Part shown: in pieces, positions 13,228-20,266 of the stretch
How positions within the stretch are numbered: the first letter of the stretch is position 1
How the letters are laid out: each line of letters starts with the position of its first letter
Assembly: GCF_023973145.1 (NCBI RefSeq)
Contig: NZ_CP099546.1
Coordinates: 1,612,001 to 1,676,000, forward strand
DNA from: Natronosalvus vescus
GTDB taxonomy: Archaea > Halobacteriota > Halobacteria > Halobacteriales > Natrialbaceae
Length of the DNA: 64,000 bases
Direction of reading: 5' to 3'
Program-made: the position numbers and the translations under genes
The notes under the pieces: generated by a model
Told to the model about the DNA's origin: nothing
Seen by the model: only the letters and a program-made list of their open reading frames with translations
The model's database searches: none

Positions 13228-13695
13228 TCAGTCGGCGTTCGTCGCCGACGTGGCCGACTCGAGCGGTTCCGAGCGCCAGTAGCCCTGAACGTACGCGCCG
13301 ATGAACATTCCGGCGATCCCCCAGAGGATGGCGTAGTTCCCGATACCGAGGCTGGCGTAGGCCGCGCCGGGACAGATCCCGGACAGTCCCCAGCCAACGC
13401 CGAAGATGCCGCCGCCGATGACGACGTTCTTGTCGAGCGATTTGAGGCGGCGTTCGTAGGGAGAGCCGGTAAACGGAGCCCGCCCGAGCACTCGCGGTGC
13501 GCCGAAAATCGCGAGTCCGGAGACGATAGCGGCACCGAACATCACGAACAACAACCCGAAGTCCTCGAACTGGAGGAAGTTGAGGACGATTTCGGGCTGG
13601 GCCATGTGGCTGAAGCCGAGCCCGAACCCGAAGATGAGCCCGCCGACGAACACCACCGGCATGAACAGCGGATGAGCTTCGTGGTCGGCAGCCAT
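13228..13695 (-). CDS. YeeE/YedE-family membrane protein, second half of a split transporter
   Basis: This 155-aa protein has four hydrophobic segments. The C-terminal half carries GWGLSGICPGAAYASLG, the Cys-containing motif of the YeeE/YedE thiosulfate/sulfur-uptake family (DUF6691-like half). Its ATG overlaps the stop of the preceding gene by one base (TAATG), so the pair is translationally coupled and likely forms a two-subunit pore equivalent to full-length bacterial YeeE. The likely substrate is thiosulfate or a related sulfur species, by family. Confidence 0.85.
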   Translation of the reverse strand: MAADHEAHPLFMPVVFVGGLIFGFGLGFSHMAQPEIVLNFLQFEDFGLLFVMFGAAIVSGLAIFGAPRVLGRAPFTGSPYERRLKSLDKNVVIGGGIFGVGWGLSGICPGAAYASLGIGNYAILWGIAGMFIGAYVQGYWRSEPLESATSATNAD

Positions 13696-14279
13696 TACGG
13701 GCTCACCCCCAGCGCCTGGACGAGCTGGGCGATGCCGATGGCGACCAGCAGAAACGTCGCGACCCCGACGAACGACGCGCTCGAGGCCGAGCCGACGCCA
13801 CAGACGCCGTGGCCGGAGGTACAGCCTTTCCCGACGCGGGTTCCGATGCCGATGAGGATTCCGCCGAGGAACAGCCGCCAGGGCTGTACCTCGGTCACCC
13901 AGATCGTGAGTCCGCCGACGTCACGGAGTTCGCCGGTCGTCGCCGTCTGGTGGAGTGAACTCGAGACCAGCCCCGACTGGAAGGTTAGCGCGTAGACGAA
14001 CGCGCCGGCGACGATCCCAAGCGCGAAGACGACGCGCCAGTCCCTGGAAGCACGATACCGCTGAAATCGTGATCGGTCGGAGACGTACGAGAGCGTCGAC
14101 TCGAGGAACGTACTCGCGCCGGCGGCGATGCCGGTCGCGAGGTAGATGACGACCACCCCGAGGCCGACGAGCGCTCCGCCGACGGCGTAGTGTTCGATCC
14201 CGTTGGGAAACGGATCCGCGGGGAGGAACGCAACCGCCTCTGTGATGAGCATAGTCGTCACAAGGGAGCCACCGGACAT
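13695..14279 (-). CDS. YeeE/YedE-family membrane protein, first half of a split transporter
   Basis: Starting at the ATG at 14279, this 194-aa protein has about five membrane segments. It carries the diagnostic motif GKGCTSGHGVCGVGSASSAS, where cysteines are proposed in YeeE to relay thiosulfate through the pore. It is followed with one-base overlap by the DUF6691-like half. A codon for TTG directly precedes the ATG but is a weaker start. In other genomes such pairs accompany sulfurtransferases or beta-lactamase-like persulfide enzymes, which are not adjacent here. Confidence 0.87.
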   Translation of the reverse strand: MSGGSLVTTMLITEAVAFLPADPFPNGIEHYAVGGALVGLGVVVIYLATGIAAGASTFLESTLSYVSDRSRFQRYRASRDWRVVFALGIVAGAFVYALTFQSGLVSSSLHQTATTGELRDVGGLTIWVTEVQPWRLFLGGILIGIGTRVGKGCTSGHGVCGVGSASSASFVGVATFLLVAIGIAQLVQALGVSP

Positions 14280-14360
14280 CAATGCTTCACCACCGGGGAA
14301 AATCGTCCGTACTGTGACGCGGTCTAGAAGTCGACCCGATTGACCCGACGATAAACGGAC

Positions 14361-15158
14361 TCAGTCGGCGATCGTCGATCCGGTCAGCGTCTCGAGTTTC
14401 CGGGCCGTGTAGCCGAAGACGTTTCGGTAGCCGTACGGGGACATCAGGACGGGGTAGAACGGTTCGCTCGCGACCTGTTTCTCACCGTCCGCGGCCGCGA
14501 ATGGGTCACCGCGGTCGACCCGCTCGAAGTTCTCGACGAACACCTCGTAGGTGTCTGCGGACTCCTTTTCGATTCGGCTAACGAGTTCGAACACCGGTAG
14601 ATCACGGCGAACGGTATCACCAGGTAGTGCATCTACCGCTGTCAGAAACGCCCGCGTCAGTCGATCCGCGTTTTCGGCGGCGGCGTCGGTTCCCTGCAAC
14701 CCGCACTCGACCTCGATCGTTTCGGCTTCGCTGAACAGCCGCCCCTCGGCGTAGGGGCCGGTCTCGACGATCGACGTCACCGGAAGTTGTGGACAGATCT
14801 CCCTGGCGGTCTCGGTGAGGCTGTTGACGATTGCGAACGGTTCTGCATGACTCTGGGTGGAATGCATCGAGAAACCCAGACAGCCCTCGAGTTCGCGGGC
14901 GAGGTCGTATGCCAGTCGGCCTTCGTGGGTTTCGGCCTCGGGATGGCCCGGAAACGCCCGGTTGAGATCCTCGTCGACGTACCGAACCTTCCGTTCGAGT
15001 GCTTCCTCGTTCGCAATAATGAGCTTCACCGGTCGTTTGACGGCCGGTTGCTCCTCGAGCAACCGTTCTACGGCGCGGACGCCACACGGTTCGTCGCCGT
15101 GGACGGCGGCGACGACCGCGATGTCGGGCGTCCCCGACCCGAGCTGTGCAACTCTCAT
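14361..15158 (-). CDS. Succinylglutamate desuccinylase/aspartoacylase-family zinc hydrolase
   Basis: This 265-aa M14-like carboxypeptidase-fold enzyme has the zinc ligands in AVVAAVHGDEPCGVRAVE (HxxE). The VDEDLNRAFPGHPEAETHEG block carries the substrate-binding Asn-Arg, and the third His ligand lies in LGFSMHSTQSHAEPF. The ETGPYAEGRLFSEAETIEVE segment carries the catalytic Glu. The family deacylates N-acyl amino acids. The adjacent gene is divergent. The natural substrate is not indicated by context. Confidence 0.85.
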   Translation of the reverse strand: MRVAQLGSGTPDIAVVAAVHGDEPCGVRAVERLLEEQPAVKRPVKLIIANEEALERKVRYVDEDLNRAFPGHPEAETHEGRLAYDLARELEGCLGFSMHSTQSHAEPFAIVNSLTETAREICPQLPVTSIVETGPYAEGRLFSEAETIEVECGLQGTDAAAENADRLTRAFLTAVDALPGDTVRRDLPVFELVSRIEKESADTYEVFVENFERVDRGDPFAAADGEKQVASEPFYPVLMSPYGYRNVFGYTARKLETLTGSTIAD

Positions 15159-15310
15159 TGGTCGTGCTAAGGATGGTCAGGCTCAAAGGCGATTCGGTTC
15201 CTGGCAGCGGCTGTGACCGGTGGTCGTCGATCGCGACCAATGTAGCCATACCCATTCGAGTTGCCACGTTGAAGCGAATATTCAAGAGTCTCACGTGCAT
15301 CCGCACACGC

Positions 15311-15784
15311 ATGGACGATCTCGCTGACGCGGGGATCTACTCCTTCGAATCCTCGTTTCTCGACCGCTACGTACAGGTCGGCATCGCGAGCGGTCGCGTG
15401 GTGTCCGTCTCGTTTCCCGACCAGCCCGACCCGAACGCCGTCGAGGGTGATCATCCGATCCTCGAGCGAATCGACGAGTACCTCGAGGGTGTCTCGGAGG
15501 TCGCCTTCGACGACGTCGAACTCGCGCTCACCGTGCCCACGGATCAGCGCGCCGTGCTCGAGCAGGTCAGAGCGATCCCCTACGGCGAAAGCGTCGGCGT
15601 TCAATCGATCGCCCGCATGACGCCGGGGCTGGATCCCGACGATGACGACGACGCGATCCTCATCCGGACGACCCTCGACGAGAACCCAATTCCGATCGTC
15701 ATTCCCGACCATCGGGTTCGAGACGGGCCGAGTGCGGCCCCACCGCCGGTCGAACAGAAGTTGCGATCGCTCGAGGAGCTATGA
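15311..15784 (+). CDS. MGMT-family protein lacking the acceptor cysteine (ATL-like)
   Basis: This 157-aa protein matches the C-terminal domain of O6-alkylguanine-DNA alkyltransferase: the helix-turn-helix region IPYGESVGVQSIARM and the active-site strand NPIPIVIPDHRVRDG. In active enzymes the last motif is PCHR; here residue 133 is Asp, giving PDHR, so self-alkylation is impossible. Known alkyltransferase-like proteins (ATL, PWHR) bind alkylated DNA and hand it to excision repair, and a similar sensing role is a reasonable inference. The ATG at 15311 gives the domain's expected length. An acidic DPDDDDDA insertion follows the HTH region. Confidence 0.82.
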   Translation: MDDLADAGIYSFESSFLDRYVQVGIASGRVVSVSFPDQPDPNAVEGDHPILERIDEYLEGVSEVAFDDVELALTVPTDQRAVLEQVRAIPYGESVGVQSIARMTPGLDPDDDDDAILIRTTLDENPIPIVIPDHRVRDGPSAAPPPVEQKLRSLEEL

Positions 15785-15834
15785 CGGGACTGTTTTTCTC
15801 TTGTGTACAGCGGGTGTGAGCCGGCTGAACGGTA

Positions 15835-16182
15835 TCAGGAGTCCGTCCACACGGCGAACACGTAGAGACCGATCCCGACGAACACGGCGATCGATGCGAT
15901 GGCATCGATCAGAATGTCGACGAGGACGACGGCGATAAGCTGCGCGATACCGCCGACGATGAGACAGATTCCCGACCCACCGAGCGGGGAGAACGGTTTC
16001 TCTGCGGCAGAAAACAGTACGCCACCGACGCCAAGAGCAACGAACCCAAAGACGATATTCGCCGCGATGCGAGCGTAGATATCGTTTGCGAACTCGCCGT
16101 ACAGAAACAGGACGAAGTACAGGATGATGCCGAACACGATCGCGCGCTGTACCGTCTCGGAGACGGACTCGAGTGCGTTCAT
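15835..16182 (-). CDS. 115-aa four-helix membrane protein, unknown function
   Basis: The start is the ATG at 16182; the frame is open upstream but there it overlaps the CPBP gene in another frame. Four hydrophobic segments are visible (IVFGIILYFVLFLYG, ANIVFGFVALGVGGVLF, LIVGGIAQLIAVVLVDILID, and IAVFVGIGLYVFAVW). It lies 25 bases after the CPBP protease gene, in the same direction, so it is probably the last gene of a lonB-CPBP-membrane protein operon. No family recognised. Confidence 0.65.
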   Translation of the reverse strand: MNALESVSETVQRAIVFGIILYFVLFLYGEFANDIYARIAANIVFGFVALGVGGVLFSAAEKPFSPLGGSGICLIVGGIAQLIAVVLVDILIDAIASIAVFVGIGLYVFAVWTDS

Positions 16183-16207
16183 ACCGCTCTCGAGGAACCC
16201 CGGATGC

Positions 16208-17305
16208 TTAGCTTTCCGTGATCGGCTCGCCAGGCGATTGCGCCCACTCGAGACCAAGCCCCTCGTGGACGACGAACTCGAGGGCGTTGATGAGGTAATG
16301 AGCGACGACGACGACGAGCAGGCTCTGGGTGACGATGAACAGCGCCGCCAGGACGAGTCCGAGCGCGCCGGTGACGATGATTCCGACGGTGCCTTGCATC
16401 CCGTGGCCGACGGCAAACGCGAGCGAAGAGCCGACTGCGAGCAGCCAGATCGGGACGTCGAACCCGGCTGAGAGTGCGCCGATCAGCGCGGCTCGAAAGA
16501 GCAGTTCCTCGAAAAACGCGATTATCGGGAGGACGAACACGAGCAGCAGGAACCAGCCACGAGCGTCCTCGGGGGCGAGTAATTCGCGGAGGGATTCGTC
16601 GTGATCGATGCCCAGGCGGACGGATAGCCCCGCACCGAGCTCGTTCGCCACGTAGAGGGCGATACCGATTCCCGTTCCAACGAGCAGTCCGGTGACCAGA
16701 TACTCCTGGTCGAACCGTACGCCGAGGGCTTCGGGCGGGATCGCGGCGTACACCGCTGCCCCGAGGATGACGGCAGCGAGGAGCCCCTGTGAGAAGGCGA
16801 CGTTCGCGAGCAACATCCCCGTCGAGAGGTGGCGTGGATCGTTCCGTCGATGCGGTGACGATCGAGACCCGGCTGCGGGCTGGGCTGGTGTTCGAACGTC
16901 GGGGCTGGAAGACGCTGTTGATCGAGTATCGGTCTCGAGGTGACCCGGAGCCACATCGTCCGACGCACCCGTGTTCGATGGGGACGTCCCACCGGAGCTC
17001 AGTGGGGGCGATCGTGGCTCCTCGGGGGATGGCGAGTCGCCCTCCCGCTCGAGGGTGGATCCCCGCTCGACTGTTTCGACATCGGAGTCTGCCTCGCCGT
17101 CGTCCGACTCAGTGGGATCGGATCGGTGTGGGGCCGATCGTTCCGCGTCCGACGCTTCCCACTCGGCGTCTCGAGGACTCCATTCCTGGGACTCCACGAG
17201 CTGTTGCGATGGCTCTTCGAACGCCTGTTGGGTGAGGTACGAGAGAACGAGCAACACCGTCAGGACGACGCCCGTAACAACGGCGAACGTCGCCCACTGA
17301 GTCAT
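16208..17305 (-). CDS. CPBP-family intramembrane glutamic protease
   Basis: This 365-aa protein has one N-terminal membrane helix (residues about 6-24), a disordered acidic Ser/Pro-rich linker of about 135 residues (25-160), and a polytopic CPBP (Abi/Rce1-like) domain. Catalytic motifs are EELLFR (E266, E267, R271), a His in AFAVGHGMQG (H301), and HYLIN (H336, N340). The domain cleaves within membranes or acts on prenylated or bacteriocin-like substrates in relatives. It starts 18 bases after the lonB stop, implying co-transcription with the membrane protease LonB. The long linker is unusual for the family. Confidence 0.85.
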   Translation of the reverse strand: MTQWATFAVVTGVVLTVLLVLSYLTQQAFEEPSQQLVESQEWSPRDAEWEASDAERSAPHRSDPTESDDGEADSDVETVERGSTLEREGDSPSPEEPRSPPLSSGGTSPSNTGASDDVAPGHLETDTRSTASSSPDVRTPAQPAAGSRSSPHRRNDPRHLSTGMLLANVAFSQGLLAAVILGAAVYAAIPPEALGVRFDQEYLVTGLLVGTGIGIALYVANELGAGLSVRLGIDHDESLRELLAPEDARGWFLLLVFVLPIIAFFEELLFRAALIGALSAGFDVPIWLLAVGSSLAFAVGHGMQGTVGIIVTGALGLVLAALFIVTQSLLVVVVAHYLINALEFVVHEGLGLEWAQSPGEPITES

Positions 17306-17323
17306 CTGTCGTGGTCTGATTCG

Positions 17324-19582
17324 TTACTGCGGGCTCGGGTTCGAACCCGTTCCCGTCCCCGTGACAGTGCTCTGTCCCTCGAGCGCGGAGCCCGTGATGA
17401 ATTTGAGCCGGTCGAGTAGCGAGTCCTTCTCGGGTTCGCCGATGAGGGCGACCTCGAGTACCTCGCTGATGTTGTCACAGGGGATGATTTCGATCATCTC
17501 CTTGTACTCGTCCTCGATCATCACGTCCTGTTCGTTGGTCTTGGGGATGATGACCTTGTCACAGCCGGCTTTCGCCGCAGCCTCGATCTTGTGCGTCACC
17601 CCACCGACGGGGAGGACGTCTCCACGAACCGAGAGCGATCCAGTCATCGCGACCGACTGGTCGACCGGGATATCCTCGAGCGCGGAGATGACGGCCGTCG
17701 CTACCGTGATGGAGGCGGAGTCACCGTCGACCCCCTGTTGGCCGGCCTGGACGAACTGGATGTGGACGTCCTTCTCCGAGAGGTTCACGTCGGAGAACTT
17801 CTTGATGATCGCCGAGACGTTCTGGACGGACTCTTCGGCCATCTCCTTGAGCTGACCGGTGGCGATGACCTGGCCCTGCCCTTGTGCAGGCGCGATTTCG
17901 GCCATGACCGGGAGCATGATTCCGGAGTCTTCGCCCATGACGGCCAACCCGTTGACGCGGCCTTCGACGCCGCCTTTGTTGACCTGGAGTTCGTAGTCCT
18001 TGCGGCGTTCGATGTAGTCGTCGGCCAACTGCTGTTCGATCGAGCGCGAGCGGCTCTTTGCCTGCAGGACGTGCTCACGCGTCGTGAACTCGGTGTCCTC
18101 CGCGCGGGCGATGTCACCGGCAACCCGGACGAGTCCACCGAGGTTCCGGAAGAGAAGCGTGAGGTGCTCCTTTCGGCCGGCCCGGCGCATTGCCTCGAGG
18201 ATGACCTCCTCGACGGCGTCGCGGGTGAAGTGAGGCAGGCGGCCGTCGCGTTCGACCTCCTGGGCGATGAACCGGGCGTACTTCCGGCGCATCTCGGGGG
18301 TGTCCTCGATGGTGTCGTCCATGTAGACCTCGTAGCCGTACCCCTTGATCCGCGAGCGGAGTGCGGGGTGCATGTTCTCCATTGCGTCTAAGTTCCCTGC
18401 GGCGATCATGACGAAGTCACAGGGCACGGGCTCGGTTTGCACCATCGCACCCGAGGAGCGCTCGGACTGGCCAGTGATGGCGAACTCGCCTTCCTGGATG
18501 GCCGTCATCAGCTTCTGCTGGGTGCGGACGTCGAGCGTGTTAATCTCGTCGACGAACAGCACGCCCTTGTTCGATTTGTGGATCGAACCCGGTTCGACGC
18601 GGTCGTGAGACGGCGTCTCCATCCCGCCGGACTGGAACGGGTCGTGACGGACGTCGCCGAGCAGGGCACCGGCGTGGGCGCCCGTCGCGTCCTCGAACGG
18701 TGCCGTGCGCTGCTCGCCGTTGTTGACGATCATGTTCGGCACCATGGCATCCATGCCACGGGAGGTGTAGCGGAAGATCAGCCAGATGATACCTGCAGCG
18801 AGGATACCCAGTAGGATCTGTCGGGCAATCAGCGCGTAGACGACGATGATCGCGATGATGATCCACATCAGGATCGATCGCATCTGGTTGCGCTTACGGG
18901 CTTCCTCTTTGTGTGCGTCGATGATCTGTTCGCCCTTTCCGGCGGGCACCGTCCGAACCTTTGGCTCGTTGCCGTCGTCGGGGTTGTGGTAGACGAGAAC
19001 GTCCTGGAGATCCTCCTGCGGAAGAAGTTGGCTCATCGCCTTCGCGAGCATCGACTTCCCCGTCCCGGGAGAGCCGATCATCATTACGTGACGACGCTGC
19101 TTGGCCGCCTTGATGATGATGTCTCGTGCCTCGTCCTGTCCGATCACCTGATCGACGAGTCGATCAGGCACCTCTATATCGGCCGTCGAGTCGATTTTTA
19201 AGCCACCGAGAAGGTCGTCCTCGGCGATTTCTTCGTCGATTTCGACGCCGGGATCGACCTCGACAGCGCTTCCCAGGTCTTCGATCGTCTCGATATCGTC
19301 ATCGTCGTCTGCAGGTTCCTCGTGTGCGTCGACGCCCGCCGCTCCGTCAATTCCCTCCTCGAGTTTGGCCAGCGAGTCCTCGAGCGGGTCGTCGGGATCG
19401 GTTTCGCTGTCCCGTTCGACTGGATCCGACTGGGAATCGCCAGTCCCATCGGTAGCGGAGCCATCGGGTGACTTTGGCTCGTCGTCGCCATCGTGGGGGG
19501 CAGTGTCCGTGGACTGGTGTCCCTCCTCGGGATCCCCGTCCTCGTCCGTTGACGGGCCGTCAACGTTCGTATCGTTGCTCAT
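17324..19582 (-). CDS. lonB: Membrane-anchored ATP-dependent protease LonB
   Basis: This 752-aa archaeal Lon has a ~125-residue acidic N-terminal extension, then the AAA+ domain with Walker A GSPGTGKS (170-177). Two membrane helices (about 235-270) are inserted into the ATPase domain, as in all archaeal LonB. Walker B VLFVDEIN is at 341-348, and the C-terminal serine protease domain carries the Ser-Lys dyad (S622 in DGDSAS; K665 in HKIEAA). It degrades regulatory and damaged proteins at the membrane; in haloarchaea LonB is essential and controls carotenoid synthesis through phytoene synthase. The Gly/Thr-rich C-terminal tail is short and variable. Confidence 0.96.
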
Positions 19583-19747: not shown

Positions 19748-20266
19748 ATGAGACGGGGGTTTTACATCGGTCGCTTCCAGCCGTATCACAACGGCCATCA
19801 CACGATGGTCGAGCGCATCGCCGAGGACGTCGACGAACTCGTCCTCGGGATCGGGAGCGCTGGCGACTCGCATACGACCCGGAATCCGTTTACCGCGGGT
19901 GAGCGCATCATGATGCTCACCAAAGCTGTCCAGGAGTTCGACCTCACCACGTACGCCGTGCCGATCGAAGACCTCGAGCGCAACTCCGTGTGGGTCAGCC
20001 ACGTCCAGAGCATGAGCCCCGACTTCGACGTGGCCTACTCGAACAACCCGCTCGTGATCCAGCTCTTTCGGGAAGCCGGCGTCGAAATACGCCAGTCGCC
20101 GATGTTCAAGCGCGAGGTGCTCGAGGGGAGGTCGGTTCGCGAGCGGATGATCGCCGACGAGGACTGGCGATCGCTGGTTCCCGACGCGGTCGTCGAGGTC
20201 GTCGAGGAGACCGGCGGCATCGAACGTATTCAGATGGTCGCTGACGACGACTCGAACGGCTCCTGA
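19748..20266 (+). CDS. nadM: Nicotinamide-nucleotide adenylyltransferase
   Basis: This 172-aa archaeal NadM transfers AMP from ATP to nicotinamide mononucleotide to make NAD+. The nucleotidyltransferase signature is complete: GFYIGRFQPYHNGHHTMVE at the N-terminus, GSAGDSHTTRNPFTAGERIMML, and SNNPLVIQLFREAG. The C-terminal phosphate-binding helix region, GRSVRERMIADEDWRSLVP, replaces the usual ISGT(S)xVR. Length is normal for archaeal members. It is followed after 71 bases by the SAM hydrolase gene in the same direction. lonB is divergent. Confidence 0.95.
   Translation: MRRGFYIGRFQPYHNGHHTMVERIAEDVDELVLGIGSAGDSHTTRNPFTAGERIMMLTKAVQEFDLTTYAVPIEDLERNSVWVSHVQSMSPDFDVAYSNNPLVIQLFREAGVEIRQSPMFKREVLEGRSVRERMIADEDWRSLVPDAVVEVVEETGGIERIQMVADDDSNGS

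Follow-up and report, generated by a model that had tools for sequence, protein, structure and literature searches.

Among proteins related to MGMT (AGT, Ogt), the alkyltransferase-like proteins (ATLs), such as Atl1 and E. coli YbaZ, have the MGMT fold without the acceptor cysteine. The residue that takes its place may be alanine. The usual residue is tryptophan, and, as described in the available part of one account (PMC10779285), ATLs keep the flipping tyrosine and the arginine finger but have lost the asparagine hinge and the N-terminal domain. The Cys-MGMTs native to other Halobacteriota combine a two-domain fold with the asparagine hinge, a PxHRV strand, the histidine and a terminal glutamate, and all these features are shared by the haloarchaeal family described here. 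The family differs from the native proteins in that aspartate stands for the acceptor cysteine, the flipping tyrosine has been lost, the arginine finger is not kept, the active-site loop is four residues shorter, and the helix-turn-helix (HTH) contains an acidic insertion. A search of the open-access literature on archaeal and haloarchaeal ATL and MGMT proteins, with subscription papers and preprints outside its scope, gave no paper on the family among the matches listed; moreover, the available parts of PMC7776575, PMC3287961, PMC10117719 and PMC10470531 contain no mention of such a protein.

The member of the family analysed here lies in the window, i.e., the whole stretch of 64,000 nucleotides of Natronosalvus vescus DNA under study (Table 1). 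Its translation contains NPIPIVIPDHRVRDGPSAAPPPVEQKLRSLEEL, and the acceptor strand, PCHRV in MGMT, reads IPDHRV. The protein matches the MGMT DNA-binding domain of Pfam (PF01035; 29.4 bits, cut-off 27), and its match to the NCBIfam ogt model is below the cut-off (20.6 vs. 46.4). The open reading frame, the GAC codon and the PF01035 match thus bear out the earlier note, which had described an MGMT-family protein with Asp133 for the acceptor cysteine. An N-terminal domain of approx. 75 residues is kept ahead of the C-terminal domain. The AlphaFold model (mean pLDDT 69.1) was built from 20 close sequences and is poor over residues 128-157, where pLDDT is below 50; it was used for the fold only. 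The best 30 Foldseek matches to this model were MGMT structures only, as were the best 31 matches from VIA-align (top Z 7.7, rmsd 6.5 over 132 aligned residues). Pfam, the structure searches and hhalign therefore agree that both the MGMT fold and the PF01035 domain are present. Residue numbers for family columns follow human MGMT (Cys145, Tyr114, Asn137, His146, Arg147, Glu172). An Rfam search of positions 14300-17400 gave no match.

Table 1. The MGMT-like gene of the window, its parts and its neighbours (positions counted from the first letter of the window)
Feature	Position	Strand	Remarks
AstE/AspA catalytic-domain gene	14361..15158	-	divergent neighbour; trpC instead in most relatives
Promoter-like element GCGAATATTCAAG	15274..15286	+	25-37 bp ahead of ATG
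Acceptor-less MGMT homologue, CDS	15311..15784	+	157 aa + stop; ATG start agrees with M(E/D)xxxDAGIY of relatives
HTH region, residues 89-124	15575..15682	+	Val97 for flipping Tyr, Ile116 for Arg finger, acidic insertion DPDDDDD
Pocket strand N125-P-x-P-x-x-I-P-D133-H134-R135-V-R137	15683..15721	+	
Asp133 codon GAC	15707..15709	+	at the MGMT acceptor cysteine position (human Cys145)
C-terminal segment	15722..15781	+	active-site loop shortened: GPSAAPPPVEQ for Gly-Tyr/Phe loop; final Glu155 retained (human Glu172 equivalent)
Rce1-like CPBP protease homologue	16208..17305	-	convergent neighbour
LonB protease	17324..19582	-	conserved syntenic neighbour
NMNAT-like nucleotidyltransferase	19748..20266	+	neighbour common to outgroup Cys-MGMT genes

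The gene is almost universal in Halobacteria. A contig scan identified 19 relatives that are 58-72% identical to the window protein, all of them haloarchaeal and all reading PDHR; when they were aligned with it, PDHRVRDGPSAAPP was found in 20 of the 20 rows and the C-terminal motif was invariant. A profile of these 20 proteins matches in 390 of 391 Halobacteria genomes, the single exception (G339) being 88% complete, and in 79 of the 80 genomes of a representative set picked for coverage of most genera. Among the 127 distinct proteins read, Asp fills the acceptor position in 111, Ser in 8, Thr in 5, Cys in 2 and Gly in 1, and the same strand keeps the asparagine hinge and the histidine in all 127 and the arginine in 126. 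The residue was read in 110 loci (96 distinct proteins) and then in 31 further loci, mostly from low-scoring or variable groups; because this second batch was picked for its variability, the share of Asp is, if anything, understated. These counts leave out a separate MGMT (L020) and a copy of the window gene (L021), and one protein (L160), whose NQVP falls outside the motif pattern, was scored as Thr by eye. In the first 110 loci, every residue at the site was a nucleophilic one, a pattern broken by one Gly among the 31 more; in one genus-level group (g50), D, S and G are all present.

Two synonymous Asp codons are in use (GAC in 77 and GAT in 25 of the 110 loci), and purifying selection on the family is clear from dN/dS, whose median is 0.11 among 187 close pairs; these were used in preference to saturated pairs (median 0.39, set aside). 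A strain-specific mutation or a sequencing error, which the earlier note had kept in view while proposing an alignment of haloarchaeal relatives, is ruled out by conservation across the class: the close relatives all have Asp, and the two proteins with Cys both belong to deep-branching families. Broken copies of the gene were observed in two genomes of the representative set, namely G316 (L187; frameshifted, with matches in two frames) and G369 (G369:C1:1023609-1024118; interrupted by approx. 70 bp). No relative was found in searches of plasmids, phages and viral contigs.

Outside Halobacteria, the best matches of a phylum search are far weaker (E 3e-14 or worse), and the acceptor cysteine is present in all 18 readable outgroup proteins, these being 18 of 20 fetched loci (L121 and L130 failed the motif pattern and were left unread). 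In a tree of 113 proteins from which the acceptor column had been removed and whose bootstrap had yet to settle fully, the Asp family (70 rows, a few of them Ser/Thr) forms one clade (100/95). Its sister (98/95) comprises four proteins of two deep-branching families, half of them with Cys and half with Ser. The remaining Cys-MGMTs of haloarchaea, among them the one encoded in the genome of the window (L020), group apart in a clade of their own (100/99). A second, quicker tree (109 rows), which excludes the mis-cut row L169, agrees and requires at least 9 residue changes at the site, 7 of them within the Asp family. Both trees leave out most of the near-identical Haloarcula and Natronococcus loci and keep seven of them, the window and the distinct loci from L045 onward. 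In profile comparisons, the family aligns with native MGMTs of other Halobacteriota over 147 columns (hhalign, E 1.9e-26) and more weakly with the separate haloarchaeal Cys-MGMTs (E 8.7e-13, 101 columns).

The gene neighbourhood agrees with the tree, as TBP, NMNAT and LonB neighbours are common to the family and the native Cys-MGMTs. In particular, TBP lies directly upstream at the deep loci, with NMNAT or LonB nearby in three of four; several outgroup Cys-MGMT genes adjoin TBP, NMNAT or LonB; and LonB lies in the vicinity at 51 of 74 loci of the Asp family. Within deep-branching haloarchaeal families (L052, L053, L054, L055 and L154), the acceptor site has Cys in two genomes and Ser in three, and the tyrosine and the lid loop are still there in four aligned proteins. 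These Cys and Ser forms are intermediates of the conversion. Given such forms, the phylogeny and the shared neighbours, the family descends from a Cys-MGMT and is the native, vertically inherited archaeal MGMT, converted in place within Halobacteria near the base of the class. An origin from the separate haloarchaeal Cys-MGMT is ruled out by the tree and by synteny. That second, cysteine-containing protein, for which the earlier note had advised a search, does exist in the same genome (G000:C1:989215, L020); it shares the Pfam domain and occurs in the same genomes as the family, but it has PCHRVV, the tyrosine and a non-acidic recognition helix. Of the 76 non-deep genomes of the representative set, 31 carry a separate Cys-MGMT, and none was found in the other 45; these counts were read from a search table and depend on its E-value limit, and some genomes are incomplete.

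What has been lost and what has been kept do not follow the ATL pattern. The flipping tyrosine is found in 0 of 66 Asp proteins (Val in 48) vs. 18 of 18 outgroup proteins and 21 of 21 separate haloarchaeal Cys-MGMTs, and the active-site loop position of Gly-Tyr/Phe is deleted in 66 of 66. The arginine-finger column, which falls in a poorly aligned insertion, is scattered, with Arg in 11 of 66. Arginine-finger loss alone proves little, since it does not abolish MGMT function in the separate haloarchaeal Cys-MGMTs, 20 of 21 of which lack the finger. At this position, these proteins (L132-L151, L020) have Val/Ile (18), Gln (2) or Arg (1) and keep the tyrosine and the cysteine. Kept in the aligned Asp proteins are Asn137 (66/66), His146 (66/66), Arg147 (65/66) and Glu172 (66/66; the final Glu is present in 74 of 74 rows aligned).

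The HTH has also changed. Its helices are still predicted, to which extent the statement in the earlier note that the HTH remains holds, but, compared with Cys-MGMTs, the segment has approx. 5-6 additional residues, and it is strongly acidic. The mean net charge is -4.3 (range -8 to -1) in the Asp proteins, the haloarchaeal Cys-MGMTs averaging -1.24 and the outgroup proteins +2.89; acidity is general among haloarchaeal proteins, and the Cys-MGMTs of the class share the same salty cytoplasm. Moreover, of the regions compared, the HTH is the one that varies most among the Asp proteins (mean pairwise identity 0.457 vs. 0.745 in Cys-MGMTs), and the preceding helix shows the opposite order (0.646 vs. 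0.570). The pattern is that of a constrained protein in which the constraint has shifted off the DNA face.

As the acceptor cysteine is missing, the textbook MGMT reaction is, judged from the protein sequence, excluded, and action on alkylguanine in DNA is most likely no longer retained. The reading to which we incline, by a modest preference, is that the former repair pocket has been repurposed for another ligand or partner. On this view, the ancestral haloarchaeal alkyltransferase, once its acceptor cysteine had gone early in the history of the class, would have been remodelled for a different job, in which it would neither transfer alkyl groups from DNA nor flip bases. The former alkylguanine pocket, predicted to be polar (Asp, sometimes Ser/Thr) under a short lid rich in Pro and Ala, may bind another polar ligand, i.e., a small molecule, a nucleotide or a peptide, and the protein might take part in a core process of haloarchaea by binding a ligand or a partner. 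Function is deduced here from missing features, and the pocket model is weak at residues 128-157; an indispensable Asp is countered by a site that tolerates S, T and, once, G.

The earlier note had seen in the protein an ATL-like one with an acidic pocket, in which Asp might alter the choice of lesion or abolish nucleotide flipping. As a damage flag, the protein would bind O6-alkylguanine in DNA, read lesions differently owing to Asp and recruit nucleotide-excision repair. The MGMT fold, the PF01035 match and the absence of the acceptor cysteine fit this proposal, and lesion handling would be useful in the genomes with no separate Cys-MGMT detected. However, at four sites (tyrosine, arginine finger, asparagine hinge, acceptor) E. 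coli YbaZ has Y, R, L and W vs. V, I, N and D in the window protein, and the haloarchaeal family is the reverse of ATLs on each point tested: Tyr is lost and the arginine finger is not kept, and the asparagine hinge and the N-terminal domain, which ATLs lack according to the available part of PMC10779285, are kept. The acidic and relaxed HTH also speaks against a lesion-binding role. ATL membership is not supported by Tyr/Arg/Asn and domain content, and an ATL function is, from these residues, unlikely. Of the earlier proposal, the missing cysteine stands and the kinship with ATLs does not; flipping would indeed be abolished, though less by Asp than by the loss of Tyr and Arg together with the acidic HTH.

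Similarly improbable is an enzyme with an Asp-His-Glu nucleophile site, in which His134 and Glu155 would aid Asp133 (Ser/Thr in relatives), an ester would form and be hydrolysed, and the protein would turn over a free small molecule as a dealkylase or hydrolase. In haloalkane dehalogenases, an ester formed on an Asp nucleophile is subsequently hydrolysed, which offers an analogy. Residues for such a site (Asp/Ser/Cys, His and Glu) are present, with the model unreliable at residues 128-157; nucleophile-capable C, S, T or D occupies the acceptor position in 126 of 127 distinct proteins, Asn and Ala, each one base from GAC/GAT, are never seen, and His and Glu are retained throughout (127/127 and 74/74). 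On the other hand, the one Gly and the mixture of D, S and G in g50 indicate that the residue is not indispensable there, and retention of His-Arg may be structural, as the strand of the ATL YbaZ (PWHRVV) keeps both without catalysis. It is still less probable that a suicide repair protein became a multi-turnover enzyme of the core haloarchaeal gene set, whose pocket would form and hydrolyse an ester on a free small molecule (e.g., an alkylated nucleobase or an alkylating metabolite), not on DNA.

The neighbourhood suggests a further candidate role, in which the protein would act as a transcription factor on the divergently oriented trpCBA operon and detect a metabolite with its former pocket. 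The labels LonB, TBP, TrpC (IGPS) and cytidylyltransferase-like NMNAT were checked in Pfam; TrpA and TrpB were named by recognition. The trpC gene lies divergently upstream in 53 of 74 loci, and an operator-like element with the consensus TTGTACANTNANGNACTNATNTGTACATAAGNCTTGCG is strongly conserved at the haloarchaeal trpC start (e.g., L188:1501-1530 (G000:C1:1210182), L001, L056 and L088): all 46 loci with adjacent trpC score 23-30 of 31, and the shuffled maximum is 18. However, the convergent LonB gene is kept equally often, so that adjacency reflects local synteny only; the element goes with trpC and not with the MGMT-like gene, including in genomes with trpC elsewhere; and a protein that binds an element this constant would be expected to preserve its recognition helix, for which pairwise identity in the Asp family is 0.453. 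Weakened by the equal LonB synteny and by an element tied to trpC, a role as regulator of trpCBA is quite doubtful. The window gene itself has no trpC-type element ahead of its start, the score there being 15 of 31 positions. An element similar to the promoter-like one of Table 1 (TTSAAG) occurs upstream in 78 of 109 loci scanned. Beside the AstE/AspA-like gene, a pair of small sulphur-transport-type membrane proteins (DUF6691 and Sulf_transp in Pfam) is encoded at 13228-14282 (-), an arrangement found among the compared loci only in L111, of the same genus.

Finally, a degenerating relic or an annotation or sequencing artefact, which the absent catalytic residues and the broken copies in G316 and G369 might suggest, is hardly credible for a gene of 390 out of 391 genomes with a dN/dS of 0.11, two Asp codons and an invariant C-terminal motif in close relatives.

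The repurposed pocket remains the reading that we prefer, and the class includes genetically tractable organisms, in which deletion and biochemistry would be straightforward. In Haloferax, nadM, lonB and abi correspond to HVO_0782-0784, and the latter two are transcribed as a unit, as given in the available parts of PMC8305020 and PMC4343526; the orthologue would presumably be the gene next to HVO_0782-0784. Annotation as MGMT usually goes by the fold, and genes of this family are therefore likely to be counted as alkylation repair despite lacking the textbook chemistry. The finding also bears on O6-alkylguanine handling in most haloarchaea, a separate Cys-MGMT having been detected in fewer than half of the non-deep representative genomes. 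The Cys and Ser forms of the deep-branching families offer a stepwise record of how a suicide repair enzyme lost its acceptor and, on this reading, would have gained a near-universal core role.
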